DNA from: a virus
Reading direction: 5' to 3' (one strand)
Virus record (IMG/VR): IMGVR_UViG_3300011114_000228
Coordinates: 1-25,598 of that record
DNA length: 25,598 nucleotides
Of this stretch, positions 1 through 25,598 are shown piece after piece. The first letter of the stretch is position 1. Every line of letters starts with the position of its first letter. The notes beneath the pieces were generated by a model, which was not told the origin of the DNA, ran no database searches, and saw only the letters and a program-made list of their open reading frames with translations. A program made the translations under genes and the position numbers.

Positions 1-1680
1 ACTTCTTGGACCGATAAGAATGGTCTCCACCTACATAAGGACTTAATGCAAGTCATGTGGCGTAAAAAGACCAGCTTTGAGTCCAAAAGCCGCAAAGTCT
101 ATATTATTTTTGATTATGACGGCGCCAAGGAAGAAGGCGAGCCTAACGAACAGGTTGCATTAGCTGAAACAAAGTTGGCCATCACGTTAAGAGGCTTAGG
201 CGCTGAGGTACACTTATGCAGAGTTGGGCGGTTTAGCTCTGGCGTTGGCAAAAAGTACGCAATCGATGATCATCTCATGGCTGGTGGAAGTCTTGGTGAG
301 GTACTTACCACAACCAGCATCGTCATGAACGGTGTAGACACGCTTGATGTAAAGCTTCATGAGTTCTCTACACGTTACGCGTTATATAACGGCGATGTGA
401 TTCGTTTAGGCGATGGCCATATCATGAACTTTCAAAAAGCTAAGATTGACAGCGCACAGCATATCTTTATACAAACAAATACTGTCCCAGGCAGAAATGG
501 CGGACCGCCTAAGGTGATCAGCAAAGAAGTCCCCATGCTTGAAGAGTACAAAAAATGGCCACGCCGCTGTGATATTCGCAAAGTTGGTGTATTTCCACAA
601 TACCAAGGTATCCGCATCACACCTGACGGCTGCTACAACTACCTCAACGCTTGGTCATATGAACCTACTACCGGTAGTCCACAACTATACCTAGACTTTT
701 GTGCGTACTTCTTCCGCGATGAGCCTGACTTTGCTGAGTACTGGCATGACTGGGTAGCTAACATTATCCAATACCCTAGTCGGCGTAACTACACGACTCC
801 ACAATTTGCATCAGCCAAGGAAGGTATTGGTAAATCTGCAATCGCTGAGTTTATCGCTGAGATGATGGGCACAGGTGAAAACAGTCCCGCTGCTATCGTA
901 GGACCAGATGAGCTCTTTGGAAGCTTTAACGGCATGCTGAAGAACAAACTGTTTGTGGTTGTGAATGAACCATCATCCGACCGAGACGATCACTCTGCCA
1001 AGCTCAAAAACTACATCACGTCCAACGAGATCGCCATCAATAATAAGTACGGCGCGCAATATAGTGTCACAAACTACCTCAATTTTGTCTTTACTACTAA
1101 TAAGCCTTACGTTACTCATATGGGAAATACTGCGAGGCGAGAAGCTATTTACAGTCCAGTCACGTTAACTAATACTGAGACGCATCCTAAGGTTTCTGAA
1201 CTCATGAAGTGGGCTCGTGCTGGTGGCTTTGGTGATGTACTTAACTGGTATTATGAAAGAGACATCTCCAATTTTGACGCTCGCAAAGCTGCTCCGCTGA
1301 CCAAGTCTCGTGATAAAGCAATTCAATTGAGCAAGACTCCATTAGAAAGCTTTGCCAACGAGTTACGTGAATGGGTGGTCGATCAGCTTGAAGGCGTGGC
1401 AGCTTTCACGACTCAACAGCTCGATATCTTAAGCGAATCGTGGGGAAATGGCAACAAAGTGAATCAACAATATTTACGCAAAGCGATGAGCGCATGTGGC
1501 GAAATCGAGCTAAATAAGGCGATAAAGATTGAAGGGAAGACTGTTCGACACACAATTTTTCAGGTTACAGCGGATGTAACCAAAATGCCTGAAAAGAGTG
1601 AAATCACGAGTTACGCTGAGGTTGCAAGAAAAACTGCTGAAGCGATATCACGAGAGGTGGTGCAACAAACGACTTTTTAG
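1..1680 (+). CDS. Phage primase-helicase (toprim-like DUF3854 + SF3 helicase DUF5906), 5'-truncated by window edge
   Basis: Likely makes primers and unwinds DNA at the phage replication origin. The frame is open from base 1, so the true start lies upstream; residues here are counted from the Met codon at 46. The N-terminal part has a toprim-like core: acidic pair D23/D25 in IIFDYDG and a later AIDDHL (D74, D75), as in DUF3854. A superfamily 3 helicase domain follows, with Walker A EGIGKS (residues 259-264, K263), Walker B FVVVNE (303-308) and motif C ending TTN (N352). The last ~130 residues are a less conserved tail. This pairing is typical of P4-type and phage replication proteins. The gene ends at TAG 1678-1680, directly before a repeat-rich intergenic region, and its own 3' end contains two GTAACC-type sites. 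The helicase assignment is firm; priming activity is inferred because the N-terminus is missing. Confidence 0.88.
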   Translation, partial: TSWTDKNGLHLHKDLMQVMWRKKTSFESKSRKVYIIFDYDGAKEEGEPNEQVALAETKLAITLRGLGAEVHLCRVGRFSSGVGKKYAIDDHLMAGGSLGEVLTTTSIVMNGVDTLDVKLHEFSTRYALYNGDVIRLGDGHIMNFQKAKIDSAQHIFIQTNTVPGRNGGPPKVISKEVPMLEEYKKWPRRCDIRKVGVFPQYQGIRITPDGCYNYLNAWSYEPTTGSPQLYLDFCAYFFRDEPDFAEYWHDWVANIIQYPSRRNYTTPQFASAKEGIGKSAIAEFIAEMMGTGENSPAAIVGPDELFGSFNGMLKNKLFVVVNEPSSDRDDHSAKLKNYITSNEIAINNKYGAQYSVTNYLNFVFTTNKPYVTHMGNTARREAIYSPVTLTNTETHPKVSELMKWARAGGFGDVLNWYYERDISNFDARKAAPLTKSRDKAIQLSKTPLESFANELREWVVDQLEGVAAFTTQQLDILSESWGNGNKVNQQYLRKAMSACGEIELNKAIKIEGKTVRHTIFQVTADVTKMPEKSEITSYAEVARKTAEAISREVVQQTTF

Positions 1681-1755
1681 TGTAACCTTGTAACCTTTGT
1701 GTAACCTACGAGGGCCTTTTATTTATTGTAAGGTTACAAGGTTACAGTAGGTTAC
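1681..1755. repeat. Inverted-repeat cluster of GTAACC/GGTTAC motifs
   Basis: A perfect 17-bp inverted repeat has its left arm at 1681-1697 and right arm at 1730-1746. A second, interleaved 9-bp pair (GTAACCTAC 1701-1709, GTAGGTTAC 1747-1755) extends it. The core hexamer occurs at 1682, 1690 and 1701 in one orientation and at 1732, 1740 and 1750 in the other, so the left half is the mirror of the right. The arrangement fits a binding site for a dimeric or multimeric DNA-binding protein such as an initiator or repressor. The transcript could also fold into a 17-bp stem with a 32-nt loop, but no U-tract follows, so a simple terminator is less likely. Confidence 0.85.
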
Positions 1756-1802
1756 AGTAATAATATAATATATATAATAATAGATAAATATATATAAATA
1801 TA
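1756..1802. other. A/T tract between the repeat clusters, candidate DNA unwinding element
   Basis: This 47-base stretch contains only two G/C bases (G1757 and G1783) and consists of TA/TAA/ATA runs. It sits between the inverted-repeat cluster (1681-1755) and the tandem 9-mers (1829-1855), just after a primase-helicase gene. That is the layout of an iteron-type origin with an easily melted element. Origin function is inference only. Confidence 0.45.
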
Positions 1803-1828
1803 CACATTTCCTATATAGTTTTCGACGT

Positions 1829-1855
1829 GTGTAACCTGTGTAACCTGTGTAACCT
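1829..1855 (+). repeat. Three perfect tandem 9-bp repeats, GTGTAACCT
   Basis: GTGTAACCT occurs head to tail at 1829-1837, 1838-1846 and 1847-1855 with no mismatch, and a partial GT flanks each side. The repeats carry the same GTAACC core as the inverted-repeat cluster 75 bases upstream, but all in one orientation. They lie about 40-50 bases upstream of the terminase small-subunit promoter candidate, so they may be iterons of an origin or operators for late genes. Confidence 0.85.
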
Positions 1856-1875: not shown

Positions 1876-1904
1876 TACACATTTTTTAACTTTTGAGATA
1901 CAAT
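1876..1904 (+). promoter_or_regulatory. Weak sigma70-like promoter candidate before the terminase genes
   Basis: TACAAT at 1899-1904 matches the -10 consensus at five of six positions. TACACA at 1876-1881 lies 17 bp upstream and matches TTGACA at four of six. This is the only sizeable gap before the packaging and structural genes, so a promoter is expected here. The predicted start of transcription falls at about 1911, on the ATG of the next gene, implying a leaderless or very short leader. Judged by eye only, in A/T-rich sequence where chance matches are common. Confidence 0.3.
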
Positions 1905-1910
1905 CATTTT

Positions 1911-2378
1911 ATGACGACAAAAACACCATCAAAGAACGGAAAGTTCTTAGGACGTCCAAGTAAGTACGACTCCGCTTATTGCGACCAAGTGATTGAGCTT
2001 GGCAAGCTCGGCAAATCACGTTGGGCGATCGCTTCGATACTGGGTATCACGCCTAGCAATCTCGCCGACTGGGAACAAGTTCATGACGATTTTCGCGGCG
2101 CCTTGCAAATTGCGAGACAAGATGCGCTTGCATACTGGGAGCTTTTGGCTGAGAATCACCTGATTGAGACACCTGGTGCGCCCAAGCTAAACACAGGACT
2201 CTGGTCTCGCTCGATGGCTGCGCGGTTCCCCAACGAATATCGTGAGAACTCCAAAGTTGAAGTGTCAGGCAACAACGGCGGTGCGATTCAGGTCGACGTA
2301 ATTCACGACTTCGCACAAGAGCTGATGTCAGATCTCCTCGCTGCAAGGCAAGCGGATGCTGAGTCAAGCGACAAGTGA
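1911..2378 (+). CDS. Terminase small subunit (TerS-like, HTH DNA-binding)
   Basis: Probable DNA-recognition subunit of the packaging motor, which binds the packaging site and recruits the large subunit. The 155-residue product begins with a short basic tail, then GRPSKY, then a helix-turn-helix region where SRWAIASILGITPSNLADW reads as a typical two-helix DNA-binding unit. An acidic helical middle part and a C-terminus ending in AESSDK follow. Size and position immediately upstream of a clear large subunit support the call. The ATG at 1911 is chosen; a TTG at 1893 would add six residues, and neither has a good ribosome-binding site, which would fit a leaderless transcript. The 3' end overlaps the large-subunit start by 23 nt, implying coupled translation. 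Confidence 0.75.
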   Translation: MTTKTPSKNGKFLGRPSKYDSAYCDQVIELGKLGKSRWAIASILGITPSNLADWEQVHDDFRGALQIARQDALAYWELLAENHLIETPGAPKLNTGLWSRSMAARFPNEYRENSKVEVSGNNGGAIQVDVIHDFAQELMSDLLAARQADAESSDK

Positions 2379-3786: not shown

Positions 3787-4954
3787 CGATATTGACCCAA
3801 CTGATCTAGCTAGAATGCAAGCAGCAGTTGACTTCAATCGTTACGACGACGGCGCAAGCCAACTACAACGCAGTCCTTTTATGCAGCAGGTCGGGCTCTT
3901 TGGTAAAGCAAAGCCTAAGCCTGTTGTAACTCCGAATCTATCACGACGCACGATGGGCCTAAACATTCCTACGCAGATGCCCGATCAATTGCCTGCCGTG
4001 ATAGACCCTTTGGCAAAGCTTCCACCCGGAGGCCCTATTGCCGTGCAGCCATCTGCATTGCCCCAAGCGCCTGCACCTGCACAGCCCGTTGTAGAGCCTG
4101 TTAACCCATTAACCGCGCTTGCTAAGATGCCTATGTCAAGGCGTAAGTTCATGGAGATACCTGCCAATGCTGCAGTGTCGCACATAGGTAAGCAAATCAT
4201 GGGGCCCATTACTCCTACATCTGCATCTACACCTTCTCCTGTAGAAGCGGTTGTACCTAAGTTTTCAAGCAACGACATTGCGAATAAGACAGGTGAATAC
4301 GTTGCAAGCGTTATGGCTAATCCTAAGTTTGCAACTGCGTACCATGATTTACTACAAAATTCTGGTCTTGTCGACGAAGAAGACATGGCGCGTTATACAG
4401 AGTTCTTAGAAAATAAGCAACCTAATGCAATGTATCAAGACTTTGGGCAATTTGACGACCTTCCTGAAGAATCACTTGCCGGCTTTGCAGAGCAATTTAG
4501 CCTTAATCACCTTGCAAAAGAAACAGGCATACCCATAAAAGAGTTTGAAAAGCGAGGCTTTACAGACGCTGACCTACATGAGCTTTTATCAAGCATTGGG
4601 CAAATGCATAACTATCAAGAAAGTATCATCGAAGACGGGCGCGCCAAAGAAGCTGTGCGCAGTACTGTTATAGAAGATCTTAACTACAAAAAAGCTGTGA
4701 AATCTGCAATTAAAGAGTTAGGTAAAGACGCAGACTACGAAGAGCTTATTGACTTGGCTAATGAGAAACTACAAAGCGAATACTTTGCAAAAACAAAAAG
4801 CTCGCAAGGCTCTACATTCTTTGACAAAGTATATGGCGCCGGACTTATGAAGTATAGCATGCCACAACTTAAAGAAGTCTACAACCAGGCATTTGATGAA
4901 TGGATCTTGCCTGAGATTGAAGGGCAACTCAACGATATATTGGACACTGACTAA
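3776..4954 (+). CDS. Protein of unknown function with Pro-rich linker and internal Tat-like motif
   Basis: I do not recognise a family. The ATG at 3776 is preferred over an in-frame ATG at 3746 because GGAGAG (3761-3766) sits 9 nt upstream; the product is then 392 residues and overlaps the terminase end by 11 nt. The first ~110 residues are low in predicted structure and rich in Pro and Ala. At residues 121-126 there is SRRKFM, which looks like a twin-arginine signal, but it lies inside the protein and the following stretch (EIPANAAVSHIG) is only weakly hydrophobic. From about residue 160 the protein is acidic and helical. It is followed by a TAATG junction to the giant gene, so the two are probably co-translated. 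A virion or ejection role is possible from context only. Confidence 0.7.
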   Translation: MPYDDIDPTDLARMQAAVDFNRYDDGASQLQRSPFMQQVGLFGKAKPKPVVTPNLSRRTMGLNIPTQMPDQLPAVIDPLAKLPPGGPIAVQPSALPQAPAPAQPVVEPVNPLTALAKMPMSRRKFMEIPANAAVSHIGKQIMGPITPTSASTPSPVEAVVPKFSSNDIANKTGEYVASVMANPKFATAYHDLLQNSGLVDEEDMARYTEFLENKQPNAMYQDFGQFDDLPEESLAGFAEQFSLNHLAKETGIPIKEFEKRGFTDADLHELLSSIGQMHNYQESIIEDGRAKEAVRSTVIEDLNYKKAVKSAIKELGKDADYEELIDLANEKLQSEYFAKTKSSQGSTFFDKVYGAGLMKYSMPQLKEVYNQAFDEWILPEIEGQLNDILDTD

Positions 4955-7900
4955 TGGCGCTAGTTTACGACCAGCTTGGTAACGTAATTGGTGATGATGG
5001 CACACCTGATATTCCTACACGGCCTGATGTTGACGCCATGAAGTTTGAGCTGGCAAAGAAAAGTATACAACCACAAATGTCCATCAGTGAGATGGGTTCT
5101 AACTTTCTTGGCAACTTAAAAGACTACGAGCAAAGACTTGGGCTCACAAACCTAAAGAAACTCGTAAGCCAGATTCCTGCAGTCAAGGCTGTACAGCCCA
5201 TTGCTGAGGTGCCTATATCGTTGGCATCAAGCGTGCCTGCTGCGTTTGCATATGGGTATGTGCCACCTGGCTCGCCTCGTAAAGCATATGATGAAGCGCA
5301 AGCTCGATCTGCAGCGTTGCAATACCAGTCAGACAACCCTTACACAAACCAGATGCTTGAAGATGCAAGCGAAGCGTTTAAAGGTTTACCACCTTACATT
5401 GGAACGATGGGCGCAGCGCGGCTTCGACCGTCTGATGTGCAAGTCCTAGGTAAGCAAGCTATTGAAACCGGTCGTGAAATAAGTAGTATCCCAGCAGACT
5501 TCCGCATGGCGCAACAAGGCTTAAAGCGTATGACTGATGAAGGCAAGCCTACGTACGGCGCGTCTATTCAACAAATGGCTGATGAGTTAGGTGACTATGC
5601 ACAACGGCAAAGAGAGCGTGGCAAGCCAACTGTCTCAATTTTAGGCGCTCAGAATCTGATGCCTGAAACAAAGCTAAACGCTGTGCGTAACGTAAATGAA
5701 GGCCAGTTGCTACGCCCTGTTGATACAGAATCACGTACATTAGCAAATGCAACAGAAGGTGATACTACACGGTCAATGCCTGGGATTGCAAAAGTTCTCA
5801 GTAAATTAGAAACGGTTAACCTTGATAACCCTACTGCAATAATAGAAGCGTATTCAGGCATTCTTGCGCCTGCTGTAATGGGTGCGTACAATGATTACGT
5901 ACGAAAAAAAGTATCTGAAATGTACCCGTACATTGATGACGTAACCGGCGCGTATAGAGCATATAATATGGGTATAAGCCCAGAGCGTCAAGCACAAAAT
6001 CGAGTAAAATGGCTTGACGAGTTTACACAAACACCTGAAGCTCAGGCGCTTGCTGCGTCTGAAAATTCTCAGCTGCCTACGCTTGCAGAATTTACCGATC
6101 GAGTAAAAGCGGCTGAAAGCTTTAAAGCAGGTCCGTTTACACAGCAAATTGCAAAGTACGCAGGCACAGCAGAAGATCCGCTTTTACAAGCAGCACGACA
6201 GGGGGTTACAGTCTACTCGCCTAATAATTTGCTAACAGAAAGCGTAATGGGTGATGCAAATGTTGCAGCAAAAGCTCGTGCAAGTGCAGTTTCACCACAA
6301 TACCCGCAAGGTCGAGAGCCTTCAGGCGAATACGCAAAAGAGTTAGCTGACTCAAACGCAGAAATTGTAAAATTAAAAGCTAAAGTTGATGAGATTACGC
6401 AAAGGCGCATGGCTACTGCACCAGACTCAGAAGCTAACAGAGTAACAACAAATCTTCGTAATGATGCAATTACTGCGTTGGAACGTGAGCAAGAGAACAA
6501 TCAAAACATTCGAGTTGCAAGAGCATACGAGATAGCGTCTGATTTAAGCGTTAAGAAAAGCGCAGCTTCAAATTTTGCGTCTACAATTGACCCAAGATAT
6601 CGACAATTCTTTCCGCAATTGCAAGATACAAGAACCCCTTCCAATGCGCCTATGTTTGACATTGATCGTGTTCGCTTTGAGCTTACAGGTTTACCAGTCT
6701 TAGGGCAACAATACATTAACGCAATCATGAGAGGCGAGATTCCGCCAAATCAAGTTAACAACATGTCTTTGGCTAAGTTTCTTAAGAAATCTGTTGAGCC
6801 GCGTATTGCGCAAGAAAAAGCAGATAGGCGTAATAGCACTGTAAGACTTGAGACGCTTGATAATGCTTTGCCTAATACTGTAAATACAATACCTAATGAT
6901 CTACGCTTTGGCAATGTAGGTGTTATTGAAGTTACTAAAGACATGCCCAGAATAGAAAGATTGCGTAACTTTTCACTTGCTACTGAGTTTCTTGATGTTT
7001 GCACAGGCGAAGATGGCAGTGGCGGAAATGCAAAGCTACATTTTCTTACAGGCAAGCCACGTAGGTACACTCCAATACTTGACTATATAACAGGCGAGAC
7101 GTTTCAAGGTTCTACAGGCGTTGAGCGACGAAACTATAGCAGTAATGTGCAAAGCGGCGATGAGATTTCTGATATACATGACTTAAATACAGGGCATGTA
7201 GTTGCACAAATTGAGTTTAATAAAATAGGCTCAACAACTGCTTCTACACCAAGGTATAACATAAATTACGTATCGGGCTATCACAATGAGGCAATTAAGC
7301 CTGAATACCAAGCAGCAATTAAAGATTACTTAAACTCACGCGCTTTTGAGATTATAAGTGCAGGTCCGCACTTAACAGATAACATATCGTTATACGACGC
7401 AAAGCGCAGATCTGATATAACAGCAGCACTAGACAAAATTGGTAAGCCACGCGACGCAATTCCTAATAGCGTAATACAAAGTGAGCTGCCTCGCTTCTTT
7501 ACAAAAGAAGACATTAAAGCATTAATACCTACACAAGTAGCTGCTATTAGTTACCAAGGCGATTTAGAAAGCTTACGTCTGCAAAAAAATGAGTTGCAAG
7601 ATCGTATAAACAATGGGTACTACGCCGATGCTGACGAGATTGATACTGCGCAGCAACAAGTTGATGAGTTTAATAGAGAGATAGAACGCGTTGAGCGGCA
7701 GATTGCTGAGCAAGGTGAGCAACGCCCTCGTAGATTGCCTGACATATTTGCGCCTAATATTACGCCACAGATTGGGCAAGTGCTTCGTGACTTAGTTGAA
7801 AGTGAGCGTAATATATTAGTAAGCAATATAGTATTGGATAATCCTACAAATACAGGATTTGCAAGAGATTTTTTTCGAGATCTTCTTACAGAAGTACTAG

Positions 7901-10452
7901 AAACTAACCCTGTTGCAGAGCGCCCATTTGACTTCATTTCTGAGTTAAACACGCTTTTAGCAAATCAAGCAAATGAACGCCCTGCTATTCGACAGTTACA
8001 TGCTTTGGCACGAATGGTAGAAGAAAGATTAAACGACTTTGGTATTCAGAATGAGGCGTTTGACCCTAACGCTTGGGAAGCTGAGCCTGAACAGCGTATG
8101 CCTGTTGCGCAACAACCTGCGCCTGATCCAGCCATGGCTGCGTTTATGGAAGACCAATTACAAAATGCACTAAGCACATTAGAAGCAGACGACCCTGAAG
8201 TTAGGCAATTGTTAACAGAAACTTTTAATAGACTATATTGGGGCGCAGCAGAAGATGCTAACCCTTATTTACGCCCTCGTGAATTTATAGATGCTTTGCA
8301 TGCGCATTGGAGAGATGATATTGTTGAGATGCCTGATGTTACTCGTGCAATATTTGCACTTAGACAAAACGTTGAAGACAGATTAGCACAACAACCCCCT
8401 GCAGCGCCTGCACAAATTGAGTATGACTTTATTGTAGACAACATTATAGATAATGAAAGGCCTCGCACTCAAGTTCGTGACGCGTATGAAGGGGCCATGG
8501 GCAACTTAGTTAATTTATATGGGGATGACCCACAAGCATTACTTGGCAACTTACGCGATTACGTTGAAGAAGTTGCGCCCCTACAAGACGATGTTATAGA
8601 CAGGGACACGCTTAGAGCATACGGGCTACGCACAAACGCACAAGCACAACAACTTGCAGATTTGTTTATTGCAACTGCTACACGCATAGAGCGTGAAATG
8701 GGTAGACAACGTGAAGCTTTCCCAGGTCAGTTAATACCTGCTGAAGAGCAAGTACCTGACGAAGTACGCGCTGACATGCTAGACCAAGAGATTGAAGGCA
8801 TGGCTGAAGACATTATGGATGCGCTTGATGATCAGTATGACTTTAATAACGTTGAACCTGCTACAGTTCGCTCCCTTATACAAAGTTTAGAAGAAGGTAA
8901 CATTGAAGATGTTTTAGGTATGGCAACACCGGACTTTGAAATTGATGGCGAAATACCGCCTGCTTTAGTACGATCATTAGTCGCAAGATTGCGCAATACT
9001 CTTCAAGGAATAGAAGATAATGCTGCTATAATGAACGAAGACGAAGGCGATCGCCCTTACGCAACGCCTAATGAAGCGTTTGTAACTTTTGTTAATGCTA
9101 ATGACCAGTTTGAAGGGCCTGATGGCTACGAAACATTGCAAACGCTTTTACAGTTTATACAACGCCCAAATTTACGTGAAAATCTTCATCTACAAAACTT
9201 TACGCCTGAGCAAATTCAAGAGCTTGACGAGTTGTTGCGTAACTACGCCCGTCAACTAAATAGACCGCCGGGTCGTAAAGATGGCGGCGTAGTTCGTATG
9301 GCTGAAGGTGGTGGCGTAAGTAGTCTACACCCTTTAGTTCAAGCAGCTGTTGCAAGAGGGGACATCCCCGCTAACCAAGCGCGATATTACCATGATATGT
9401 ACACGACAAAAGGTAGCACACAGGATGAGTCAGCAATTAGAGGCATGTCAGAAAAAGAATACAACTACTATTCCAAGTTGCTCAAAGATAAGCAATTGCA
9501 AAAGAACTTTTACGGTGGGGAAATACCTGAGCGTCGCCCACCGCCTCCTTCAAGCCCGGCAAATCTAGACTTAAGCCGCGAGCAACTAAGAGCGCTTTCC
9601 TATAAAGAGTTTGGCGCACCACGCTCGCCATTTAAGTTAGGCGCCAGCGATAATGCTAATGTGTACCCAGGCGCAAGCGATGCTAAGTACTATGATGAGC
9701 TAAAACAAGCAGCAGCCAAAGATCCAAGCTACCAGCCTTACCAAGATGAGCTTACAAAACTCTTACAACAAAACCCAAATCTGCTACAACTTGAAAAAGC
9801 TTTTGCTAAAGGTGGCGTAGTTCGTATGGCTGAAGGTGGAATAGTTGATGACTTTATCAAAGGCTTCCCTATGGGGTCTAGGTTTGTGCCAAAGCAAGTA
9901 GCAACGCCGCTTCCTCCACCTCCCGTTGCTAAGCCTACAATTGATAATTTTGAGCATGCTTTAGACTTTGTACTGCCTAGAGAAGGCGGGTACAATAAAG
10001 TGAAGGGTGATCGTGGCGGAGCTACAAATTACGGAATTACGCATAACGTGTATTCTACCTTCCGTGGGCAGCCTGTTACAGAAGATGCAATTCGCGATAT
10101 GCCTATCGAGCATGCTAGAGAAATCTATAAGAAAAACTATTGGGATGCCATTGGAGCCGATAAGCTGGATACAAAATCTGCAGTTGTGGCGTTTGACGCT
10201 GCAGTCAATCAAGGCCCATCGTTTGCCAAGTCTCTCATAGCAAAAACAGATGGTGATGTAAAACAGATGTTAGATATCAGAGAACAGCGATATAATGATC
10301 TAGTAAAGAAGAACCCTAGTAAAAAGAAATTCAAAGCTGGGTGGGATAATCGCATGACTGACTTAAGAAACTACGCAATGGAAGATTATCACGCTGATGG
10401 AGGTAAAATATCAATTGATGATATGAAATTAGCGCTCACGAGGAAGAAATAA
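4954..10452 (+). CDS. Giant (1832-residue) virion-associated protein with C-terminal GH108 lysozyme-like domain
   Basis: Most of this protein is unrecognised; the C-terminus is a peptidoglycan hydrolase of glycoside hydrolase family 108. The GH108 hallmark is REGGY with the likely catalytic acid E1677, then GDRGGATNYGIT (about 1685-1696). The hydrolase plus its usual small peptidoglycan-binding tail spans about 1662-1815. The N-terminal part contains a mildly hydrophobic segment around residues 82-101. A charged, coiled-coil-like stretch lies near 870-930, and the middle is long, acidic and helical. The peptide GGVVRMAEGG occurs twice (about 1444-1453 and 1620-1629), bracketing a ~165-residue block. 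It starts at a TAATG junction and is followed by another to the portal. The likely role is an internal or ejection protein that locally opens the cell wall at infection. It could instead be a polyvalent protein processed into pieces. A pure endolysin is unlikely at this size. Confidence 0.85.
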   Translation: MALVYDQLGNVIGDDGTPDIPTRPDVDAMKFELAKKSIQPQMSISEMGSNFLGNLKDYEQRLGLTNLKKLVSQIPAVKAVQPIAEVPISLASSVPAAFAYGYVPPGSPRKAYDEAQARSAALQYQSDNPYTNQMLEDASEAFKGLPPYIGTMGAARLRPSDVQVLGKQAIETGREISSIPADFRMAQQGLKRMTDEGKPTYGASIQQMADELGDYAQRQRERGKPTVSILGAQNLMPETKLNAVRNVNEGQLLRPVDTESRTLANATEGDTTRSMPGIAKVLSKLETVNLDNPTAIIEAYSGILAPAVMGAYNDYVRKKVSEMYPYIDDVTGAYRAYNMGISPERQAQNRVKWLDEFTQTPEAQALAASENSQLPTLAEFTDRVKAAESFKAGPFTQQIAKYAGTAEDPLLQAARQGVTVYSPNNLLTESVMGDANVAAKARASAVSPQYPQGREPSGEYAKELADSNAEIVKLKAKVDEITQRRMATAPDSEANRVTTNLRNDAITALEREQENNQNIRVARAYEIASDLSVKKSAASNFASTIDPRYRQFFPQLQDTRTPSNAPMFDIDRVRFELTGLPVLGQQYINAIMRGEIPPNQVNNMSLAKFLKKSVEPRIAQEKADRRNSTVRLETLDNALPNTVNTIPNDLRFGNVGVIEVTKDMPRIERLRNFSLATEFLDVCTGEDGSGGNAKLHFLTGKPRRYTPILDYITGETFQGSTGVERRNYSSNVQSGDEISDIHDLNTGHVVAQIEFNKIGSTTASTPRYNINYVSGYHNEAIKPEYQAAIKDYLNSRAFEIISAGPHLTDNISLYDAKRRSDITAALDKIGKPRDAIPNSVIQSELPRFFTKEDIKALIPTQVAAISYQGDLESLRLQKNELQDRINNGYYADADEIDTAQQQVDEFNREIERVERQIAEQGEQRPRRLPDIFAPNITPQIGQVLRDLVESERNILVSNIVLDNPTNTGFARDFFRDLLTEVLETNPVAERPFDFISELNTLLANQANERPAIRQLHALARMVEERLNDFGIQNEAFDPNAWEAEPEQRMPVAQQPAPDPAMAAFMEDQLQNALSTLEADDPEVRQLLTETFNRLYWGAAEDANPYLRPREFIDALHAHWRDDIVEMPDVTRAIFALRQNVEDRLAQQPPAAPAQIEYDFIVDNIIDNERPRTQVRDAYEGAMGNLVNLYGDDPQALLGNLRDYVEEVAPLQDDVIDRDTLRAYGLRTNAQAQQLADLFIATATRIEREMGRQREAFPGQLIPAEEQVPDEVRADMLDQEIEGMAEDIMDALDDQYDFNNVEPATVRSLIQSLEEGNIEDVLGMATPDFEIDGEIPPALVRSLVARLRNTLQGIEDNAAIMNEDEGDRPYATPNEAFVTFVNANDQFEGPDGYETLQTLLQFIQRPNLRENLHLQNFTPEQIQELDELLRNYARQLNRPPGRKDGGVVRMAEGGGVSSLHPLVQAAVARGDIPANQARYYHDMYTTKGSTQDESAIRGMSEKEYNYYSKLLKDKQLQKNFYGGEIPERRPPPPSSPANLDLSREQLRALSYKEFGAPRSPFKLGASDNANVYPGASDAKYYDELKQAAAKDPSYQPYQDELTKLLQQNPNLLQLEKAFAKGGVVRMAEGGIVDDFIKGFPMGSRFVPKQVATPLPPPPVAKPTIDNFEHALDFVLPREGGYNKVKGDRGGATNYGITHNVYSTFRGQPVTEDAIRDMPIEHAREIYKKNYWDAIGADKLDTKSAVVAFDAAVNQGPSFAKSLIAKTDGDVKQMLDIREQRYNDLVKKNPSKKKFKAGWDNRMTDLRNYAMEDYHADGGKISIDDMKLALTRKK
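9286..9839 (+). repeat. Pair of 26-bp exact direct repeats encoding GGVVRMAEGG
   Basis: The same 26 bases occur at 9286-9311 and 9814-9839 in the same frame of the giant gene. Identity at the DNA level, including third positions, points to a recent duplication, gene conversion or recombination rather than convergence. The block between them would be deleted by recombination across the repeats without loss of frame (528 bp apart, a multiple of three). Confidence 0.9.
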
Positions 10453-23138: not shown

Positions 23139-25598
23139 ATGGCAGCTACAGGATACACACCAATTTTAATTTATGCTAGTGGAACAGCAGCAGCTGTACC
23201 GTTAGCAGCTGATTTAACAACAAACGCGACTACAGGCGCTGAGCTTGCTATTAACTATACCGACGGCAAGTTATACTACAAGAATAACTCTGGTGTAGTC
23301 ACTCTACTCGCTTCAACTTCAGGCGCATCGGGTGATGTAGTCGGACCTGCAAGTGCTACGGACAACGCCTTGGCAAGGTTTGATTTAACGACAGGCAAGC
23401 TAATACAGAACTCAGTTGGTATCTTGAGCGATGCAGGTATTCTGACAGGGCTGACAGGTCTGACATCATCAGGCTCGATTACATTCTCTAGCTTGACAAG
23501 TGGTCGAGTAACTTATGCAACTACCGCAGGTCTACTAACAGACTCAGCCAACCTTTTATACTCTGGTACTGACTTAACTGTTTATGGTCTTACTGTTGGT
23601 CGTGGAGGTGGTGCTGTTGCTACAAATACAGTTTTAGGTGCTAGTGCTTTAGCGTTTAATTCAACAGGTACATTAAACATTGCCATTGGTGCAAATGCTA
23701 ACAAAACCACAACAGGCTCTAACAATATAGGTATTGGACAGTACACCCTTGGTGGTAATGCCGCAGGTGCTACAGGAAGTAGTAATACAGGCGTTGGTGA
23801 TTACACTATGTTCCAGTTAACATCTGGTGCAAGTAATGTGGCTATAGGTCAATCATCACAACAATTTACATCTACTGGTAGTTTTAACGTATCTGTTGGA
23901 AATAGCGCATTACTAAACAATAGCACCGCTTCTAACAACACAGCAGTAGGTTATCAATCTTTATATTCGTATACAAACGGTAGTGGGGCTACTGTTGCTA
24001 TTGGTACTCAAGCTGGATATTCAACTAATGCACAATATGGTGTCTATATTGGTCAGACTGCTGGGTATTCCTCTACTGGCGCAAACGTAACCCATGTTGG
24101 TTTTCAGGCAGGTTACTACACCTCTACTGGAACAAACAATACTTCATTGGGTTGGTCTGCTTTACAAGGCTCGTCTGGTGCAACAGGGTCAAACAATACA
24201 GCACTTGGCTCTCAAGCACTTTACTCAAACACCACCGCCTCTAATAACACAGCAGTAGGTTATCAAGCAGGATATAGTAATACAACAGGTACAGACAATA
24301 CTGCTGTTGGTTATGGTGCATTATTTACAAATACTACTAGTCCTTATAACACCGCTGTTGGTCGTGATGCTCTAAGAACAGGTACAGGCTCTAGAAATAC
24401 TGCCATTGGCGCATATACACAAAACAATCAAACAACAGGTGATTCAAATACTTCTGTTGGTGTAGGTGGTTTAAATCAAAATACTACTGGTTCATATAAC
24501 ACCGCTATAGGCGACCAGTCTTTAATTAACAACGTTACCGCATCTAATAACACAGCAGTAGGTTATCAAGCTGCTTACTCAACAACAACAGGCGGGGATA
24601 ACGCTGTATTTGGTCATGGTGCATTTTATGCCAACACCACAGGAAATCAAAATACAGTTGTTGGTCGTGCGGCAATGGGTAGTAACACTACAGGTGCAGA
24701 TAATGTGGCTGTTGGTTTTGTTGCTTTACAAAATAATACAACTGGAAATTACAATACAGCATTAGGCGATAGTGCGTTACGCTTAAACACCACCGCATCT
24801 GATAACACCGCAATTGGTTATCAAGCAGGATTAAATAATACTACTGCAACGGGATTTACAGCAGTTGGTTCTTTAGCAGGTAGGAGCAATACTACTGGCG
24901 ATAGCCCTACTGCAATAGGTCACTATACTTTATACAGCAACACAACAGGCGCATCTAACACAGGTGTAGGTCGTTCAGCACTTCAATCAAATACTACTGG
25001 TAGTTATAACACAGCCATTGGTCGTGATGCTTTAATACTAAACACCACCGCCTCTAATAACACAGCAGTAGGCTATTTGTGTATGACAGCAAATACTACA
25101 GGAATAAATAATGTTGCAGTTGGTTTTGAAGCCCTTAAATTAAATACCACCGCTAATAACAATACCGCAGTAGGTTATCAGGCAGGAATAAGTAATACAA
25201 CAGGAACAGCAAATGTGGTTTTAGGTAATCAAGCCTTATACTCAAACACCACCGCTTCTAACAACACAGCAGTAGGTTATCAAGCGGGATATAGTAATAC
25301 TACAGGTTCACTTACTACAGTTGGTTATCTTGCTGGGTATTCAAACTCAACAGGAACTGATAACACTTCGTTTGGTAGTTTTTCATTAAGGTATACCACA
25401 ACAGGAGCAGGTAATTCAGGGTATGGTGCATACAGTTTAACCAACAACACAACAGGCAGTAGCAATACAGCACTTGGTATGCAAGCCTTACAAGCAAACA
25501 CCACCGCCTCTAATAACACAGCAGTAGGTTATCAAGCAGGGTATAGCAATACTACTGGAGCATCTAATGTTGCCGTCGGAACAACGGCTCTTTACTCC
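23139..25598 (+). CDS. Repeat-rich tail fibre/adhesin, truncated by window edge
   Basis: Open for 820 codons from ATG 23139 to the last base, so the C-terminus is missing. AAGGAA (23127-23132) lies six bases upstream. Residues 1 to about 162 form a head containing a GDVVGPASATDNALARFD motif, common in phage fibres. From nt 23625 onward the protein is a tandem array of a ~17-residue unit, consensus NTAVGYQALYSNTTGSN: 38 complete units and one partial, by my reading. The small-Gly pattern (AVG at each turn) recalls the YadA/Hep_Hag-type beta-roll of trimeric adhesins, though those use about 14 residues. The likely role is a long fibre that contacts the host surface. It lies directly after another fibre gene. 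Confidence 0.85.
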   Translation, partial: MAATGYTPILIYASGTAAAVPLAADLTTNATTGAELAINYTDGKLYYKNNSGVVTLLASTSGASGDVVGPASATDNALARFDLTTGKLIQNSVGILSDAGILTGLTGLTSSGSITFSSLTSGRVTYATTAGLLTDSANLLYSGTDLTVYGLTVGRGGGAVATNTVLGASALAFNSTGTLNIAIGANANKTTTGSNNIGIGQYTLGGNAAGATGSSNTGVGDYTMFQLTSGASNVAIGQSSQQFTSTGSFNVSVGNSALLNNSTASNNTAVGYQSLYSYTNGSGATVAIGTQAGYSTNAQYGVYIGQTAGYSSTGANVTHVGFQAGYYTSTGTNNTSLGWSALQGSSGATGSNNTALGSQALYSNTTASNNTAVGYQAGYSNTTGTDNTAVGYGALFTNTTSPYNTAVGRDALRTGTGSRNTAIGAYTQNNQTTGDSNTSVGVGGLNQNTTGSYNTAIGDQSLINNVTASNNTAVGYQAAYSTTTGGDNAVFGHGAFYANTTGNQNTVVGRAAMGSNTTGADNVAVGFVALQNNTTGNYNTALGDSALRLNTTASDNTAIGYQAGLNNTTATGFTAVGSLAGRSNTTGDSPTAIGHYTLYSNTTGASNTGVGRSALQSNTTGSYNTAIGRDALILNTTASNNTAVGYLCMTANTTGINNVAVGFEALKLNTTANNNTAVGYQAGISNTTGTANVVLGNQALYSNTTASNNTAVGYQAGYSNTTGSLTTVGYLAGYSNSTGTDNTSFGSFSLRYTTTGAGNSGYGAYSLTNNTTGSSNTALGMQALQANTTASNNTAVGYQAGYSNTTGASNVAVGTTALYS
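23625..25598 (+). repeat. 51-bp-period tandem repeat array inside fibre gene
   Basis: The coding repeat is visible at DNA level. CAGCAGTAGG-type copies start at 23941, 24250, 24553, 25063, 25267 and 25519, with a CCGCAGTAGG variant at 25165. Their spacings are multiples of 51 bp, allowing for 16- or 18-residue units (for example 510, 102 and 102 bp apart). Most units are 17 codons; exceptions range from 16 to 20. The first 11 units are more diverged than the later ones. Several units are nearly identical, so recombination could change copy number. The array continues past the window. Confidence 0.9.

Follow-up and report, generated by a model that had tools for sequence, protein, structure and literature searches.

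A probable iteron-type replication origin at the 3' end of a primase-helicase gene in a group of environmental tailed phages

The window analyzed here, a stretch of 25,598 nucleotides from the IMG/VR virus record IMGVR_UViG_3300011114_000228, is part of a tailed-phage genome and contains a cluster of short repeats between a DUF5906 primase-helicase gene and terS, which encodes the small terminase; terminase, portal, and capsid genes lie downstream. Sequence comparison and structure modelling indicate that this cluster is very probably the replication origin of this freshwater phage, with TGTAACC iterons that would be bound by the C-terminal winged-helix domain of the primase-helicase. A preliminary description, made from the letters of the window, had suggested an initiator-bound iteron origin beside the primase-helicase, and this suggestion is supported as the best fit to the comparative evidence. 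The computed evidence comprises the repeats, their conserved layout, an association of protein residues with site bases across independent changes, and the predicted fold of the domain.

Eleven TGTAACC sites occur within 292 bp. The eleven GTAACC/GGTTAC copies listed in the preliminary description were all found at the positions it gave, and every one extends to the 7-mer TGTAACC. When hexamers with at least two G/C were counted over 300 bp in the window and in 100 dinucleotide shuffles of it, the densest segment for any hexamer held 11 copies and the shuffles reached a maximum of 4-6; the cluster stands far above the shuffled expectation and is not due to chance. Only 11 further copies of GTAACC occur elsewhere in the window, scattered across about 20 kb. 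The symmetries reported earlier were recovered as well. They include inverted arms at 1678-1697 and 1730-1749 (95% complementary over 20 bp, with a 32-nt loop and a perfect 17-mer inside), an interleaved inverted pair at 1700-1709 and 1747-1756 that is perfect across 10 bp, and three direct copies at 9-bp spacing between 1825 and 1857. The perfect 17-bp inverted repeat arises because two pairs of sites are opposed. The A/T tract at 1756-1802 has two G/C, as had been described from the sequence. Absent from the earlier account was a box, TATATAGTTTTCG, which lies to the right of the A/T tract, ahead of the right-hand repeats, and is perhaps a melting start, a priming site or a host-factor site. 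Variants of the box, TATAAAAGAGTCTGCAG and TATATAGTCTTTCTG, also occur.

Relatives were obtained as loci from protein searches of viral contigs, giving about 90 related phages, and the layout was compared in the window and 42 representatives. The expectation that GTAACC clusters would recur beside DUF5906 genes stood in part: GTAACC itself is missing in most relatives, but the cluster is kept with another hexamer. Depending on the clade, TGTAAC, TGTTAC, TGTAAT, TGTATC or TGATAC sites occupy the same position between the primase-helicase gene and terS. Relatives share an order of leftward sites, an AT-rich spacer (mostly 60-73 bp) with a box like TATATAGTTTTCG at its end, and rightward sites, and in most of them a leftward site lies some 80-115 bp ahead of the primase stop. 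The outer left block varies in orientation; the inner left block points leftward and the right block rightward. None of the five relatives of 45-57 kb examined has a denser cluster of its motif than this one. No close isolate of this phage group was found, and no prophage or isolate relative was confirmed in a search of genome contigs; among the matches listed, isolated phages reach at most 29% identity across parts of the primase. A comparable hexamer cluster is absent from four regions of isolates or complete genomes (PW916, AXL_3, MW202545, and Caulobacter RW), and when phage records were searched with the DNA of the region, all matches were at chance level. In a further primase group (L244-L247), the gene is not beside terS and no clear iteron cluster occurs at the primase 3' end.

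A winged helix is predicted for the C-terminal 135 residues of the primase. Their AlphaFold2 model, with a mean predicted local distance difference test score (pLDDT) of 77, has the order helix-strand-helix-helix-strand-strand, and most of the structures nearest to it are winged-helix domains (best Z 5.6). In a nested clade (L018, L026, L031, L074 and kin), the main type is replaced by another C-terminal domain type, type B, which has a longer wing loop and an RGW motif; the type B model (mean pLDDT 78) also has the winged-helix order of elements.

The association between residues and bases was scored in each of the 74 loci that carry the main type of C-terminal domain, the motif classes having been set after inspection. 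Where residue 507 is Leu, site base 4 is T (31 of 31 loci), and where it is anything else the base is A (43 of 43); at residue 509 Lys or Arg accompanies C at base 6 in 65 of 65 loci, while Ser, Asn or Thr accompanies T in 9 of 9. In the predicted wing, residues 507-509 belong to the second strand. A scan of 696 columns ranked 507 best for base 4, with a normalized mutual information (NMI) of 0.609 against 0.375 for the next column, and found it to be the sole full predictor; 509 was best for base 6 (NMI 0.686). T at base 5 was found only in the TGTATC phages (three scored), which carry Thr508 and Arg509; this is only a hint regarding base 5, because Thr508 is present in three TGTAAT loci too. 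On a tree built from the primase minus its C-terminal 135 residues, 13 changes of site type are needed, with eight changes of base 4 and eight of residue 507. All six supported independent pairs agree for base 4 and residue 507 (sign test, p 0.031), as do all three for base 6 and residue 509. The rule predated the fetching of 32 further loci, and 32/32 conform, including L211, a natural switch within a TGTTAC clade, and L194, a switch within a TGTAAT clade. No such residue-base rule for self-loading initiators was found in the open-licence papers searched.

Two cases are particularly telling. The sister loci L211 and L216 have 99% core identity and identical TerS proteins (156/156), but nearly all their sites differ, being TGTAAC in L211 and TGTTAC in L216, with one old-type TGTTAC site kept in L211; their wings differ at residues 506, 507, 514, 515, and 517. 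In the L236 contig, the primase gene is about 4.5 kb from terS and a TGTATC cluster is still found in front of terS. The residues there are TTR, the same as in TGTATC phages elsewhere; the contig was scanned for TGTATC on the strength of these residues, and a reversed control pattern was unmatched in it. Since the cluster type fits the residues with the primase about 4.5 kb off, the association is, at this one locus, separated from linkage.

At L267 (G011:3500-12200), the primase gene is on the opposite strand at a distance of about 4.5 kb from terS; the cluster stays before terS, and its sites reach into the last part of an unrelated gene there, at the 3' end.

Physical binding, melting, loading, initiation, and bidirectionality are what we infer from these comparisons. 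Residues of the wing strand would read the bases, 507 with base 4 and 509 with base 6, and copies of the protein would gather on the leftward and rightward blocks that flank the AT-rich spacer. The bound copies would melt this spacer; their own helicase and primase domains would then load and start forks, perhaps bidirectionally. We also lean slightly towards a broader proposal, in which a freshwater tailed-phage clade carries origins of the type known from phage-inducible chromosomal islands (PICIs), with a specificity given by about three wing-strand residues (507, 508, and 509) reading bases 4, 5, and 6. The origin type would have switched repeatedly, nearly all of the 8-11 iterons changing together with the wing, possibly as an escape from satellites or competing phages that share the initiator. 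The joint change of nearly all sites may reflect import as a block or stepwise replacement.

Several observations weigh against the origin reading. L030 has no clear AT-rich spacer at the scored position, and in cumulative GC skew two genomes have their minimum at a distance of 2-3 kb from the cluster, the three others at a different place. The residue-base association was first noticed in part of the data later scored, and column 723 (V522 in the window) likewise fully predicts base 6. In type B domains, TGTAAC is accompanied by Lys (L026 and L029) and TGTAAT by Phe, Tyr, Leu or Thr, but most alignments place this position one residue away from 509, and the rule is supported only loosely. Matches of the C-terminal domain in the PDB are modest (Z up to 5.6). 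A Foldseek search of the domain against the PDB gave no confident match (best E 0.053), and its profile had no meaningful match among PDB sequences. GC skew was dropped as evidence for an origin, as the minima differ among the five relatives and follow gene direction.

The cluster might alternatively be an operator for late-gene control, as the preliminary description had also considered, at which the primase-helicase or another regulator would repress or activate the terS promoter. A promoter-like TACACA-17-TACAAT does start about 20 bp past the last site, a TACAAT-like hexamer is found again before terS in relatives, and the cluster remains with terS where the primase gene has moved. Such an operator nevertheless leaves unexplained the near-constant length of the AT-rich spacer, the two opposed blocks, the box, and the covariation with a helicase domain; it explains less than an origin and is improbable as the sole role of the sites. 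A dual role, as an origin and in autoregulation of late transcription, is possible.

Even less probable is a packaging (pac) site to which the small terminase, the product of the terS gene just after it, would bind. Although pac sites are often in or near terS and the cluster lies directly ahead of this gene, in the L236 contig too, the identical TerS proteins of L211 and L216 accompany different site types. Moreover, no TerS column predicts a site base, the best NMI for base 4 being 0.312 as compared with 0.594 for primase column 507 in the same loci. TerS was rejected as the binder on these two grounds. The least credible reading is that the 17-bp inverted repeat ends the primase transcript with an RNA hairpin or terminator; it draws on the length (20 bp), complementarity (95%), and 32-nt loop of the arms and on one terminator-like match. 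The inverted repeat is, however, a consequence of opposed iterons, and many relatives have no hairpin because their outer left sites are reversed or missing, with the other site blocks kept. The orientation of sites in relatives led to the rejection of this reading.

Coordinates of the cluster and of neighbouring features are collected in the table. In full-length relatives, DUF5906 is preceded by DUF3854 (PF12965); we take DUF3854 to be a Toprim-like domain, as a lead only. The TACAAT hexamer of the probable terS promoter ends 6 bp before the ATG (1899-1911), so that terS may be transcribed with no leader or almost none; comparable spacing from TACAAT to the terS ATG was seen in many relatives. 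Further downstream, an open reading frame (ORF) of 1832 aa (4954-10452) carries in its C-terminal part REGGYNKVKGDRGGATNYGITHNVY, which we assume to resemble a GH108-type lysozyme motif, perhaps that of a virion-associated peptidoglycan hydrolase. Another ORF (23139-25598), open at the end of the window, has many near-repeats of the form NTALGxxAL/NTAVGYQAG, a pattern known from tail-fibre or adhesin-like proteins.

Table. Features of the probable origin and of the adjacent genes (positions in the window)
Feature	Position	Strand	Basis or remark
DUF5906 primase-helicase, 5' end beyond window	1..1680	+	Pfam PF19263, E 8.9e-19
Predicted C-terminal winged-helix (proposed origin-binding) domain, residues ~447-522	1339..1566	+	AlphaFold2 model, structural neighbours
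A507-I508-K509 codons in wing, proposed base-reading residues	1519..1527	+	column scan, tree test, residue table
Iteron TGTAACC, within primase coding sequence	1563..1569	-	sequence; leftward site at ~-80 to -115 in most relatives
Iteron TGTAACC, within primase coding sequence	1575..1581	+	sequence
Iteron, outer left block	1681..1687	+	sequence
Iteron, outer left block	1689..1695	+	sequence
Iteron, outer left block	1700..1706	+	sequence
Iteron, inner left block	1732..1738	-	sequence
Iteron, inner left block	1740..1746	-	sequence
Iteron, inner left block	1750..1756	-	sequence
AT-rich spacer, 16% G+C, candidate unwinding element	1757..1829	no strand	60-73 bp in most relatives
Conserved box TATATAGTTTTCG, right end of AT-rich spacer	1812..1824	+	window and relatives
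Iteron, right block	1830..1836	+	sequence
Iteron, right block	1839..1845	+	sequence
Iteron, right block	1848..1854	+	sequence
Probable terS promoter, sigma-70-like TACACA-17-TACAAT	1876..1904	+	sequence; TACAAT-like hexamer before terS ATG common in relatives
terS, small terminase	1911..2378	+	PHROG 309, E 1.4e-16

If the origin reading holds, an origin is identified along with its initiator in a group of environmental phages for which no close isolate was found, and the PICI origin plan is extended to tailed phages. The group also supplies naturally varied pairs of initiator and iterons, with two bases predictable from two residues, so that the recognition and the change of origins by self-loading initiators become testable with point mutants. 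This fits with origin recognition as a target in phage-satellite conflict, as shown for the PICI-like elements (PLEs) of Vibrio cholerae against the phage ICP1 (PMC8263062).

Among known systems, PLE RepA and its origins offer a parallel, since initiator domain and iterons exchange as a cognate module (PMC8263062); they differ in having an unrelated initiator domain (RepA_N), semi-palindromic iterons of about 30 bp, and a satellite element as carrier. Initiators of iteron plasmids, such as RepE and TrfA, are without helicase or primase domains, in contrast to the protein described here with DUF5906 and, in full-length relatives, DUF3854. The primase of phage NrS-1 (PDB 6k9c and 6lrb) is the best sequence match of solved structure (E 6.8e-14, helicase part), and 6lrb has a weak structural alignment with the winged helix too (Z 4.3); the N-terminal part of the NrS-1 primase is described as a primase-polymerase of the archaeo-eukaryotic primase (AEP) type (PMC8718748), as against DUF3854 here. 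Priming, unwinding, and origin binding reside in one polypeptide in the alpha protein of P4, with a winged helix on repeats, according to a paper citing Yeo 2002 (PMC4234260). The primase of this group is not a P4-family member, because TIGR01613 (the NCBIfam P4 family) scored 33.4 and 22.8 bits in two relatives, below the cut-off of 108.7; the P4 origin-binding domain is not among the listed structural neighbours, which excludes nothing. P4 has a second iteron cluster (crr) besides ori. No second, distant GTAACC cluster was found in the 50.9 kb relative G001, possibly incomplete, which differs from P4.

The C-terminal domains of Rep from Staphylococcus aureus pathogenicity islands (SaPIs) and of Cch2 from the staphylococcal cassette chromosome mec (SCCmec) bind iterons just downstream of their own genes (PMC7581432). 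Cch2 is a Primase_Cterm/D5-type helicase, and on its own the C-terminal domain of Cch2 binds short direct repeats that follow the gene (PMC7581432); it differs in having only three 5-nt iterons (AAGTG) at its putative origin and no fused primase, and replication in vivo was not demonstrated in that study. The SaPI-type origin layout was called exclusive to PICIs in one paper. The layout described here, in the window and most of the 42 representatives, matches the plan of the PICI/SaPI origin with its self-loading initiator helicase, as known for SaPI Rep and for pri-rep-ori of E. coli PICIs. The origin of PICIs is immediately 3' of the initiator gene, and the sites here extend from the 3' end of the primase gene as far as 1854, the L236 contig, with its cluster at terS away from the primase, being an exception. 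PICI initiators recognize iterons through the C-terminus, as the strong residue-base covariation suggests for the phages. The phage origins differ by the terS gene that follows, by extra iterons inside the initiator gene, and by the conserved box. PICIs are satellites with integrase, regulator, and pri-rep genes; the element described here is not a PICI, because it lies in a tailed-phage genome with its own structural genes, including terminase, portal, and capsid genes.
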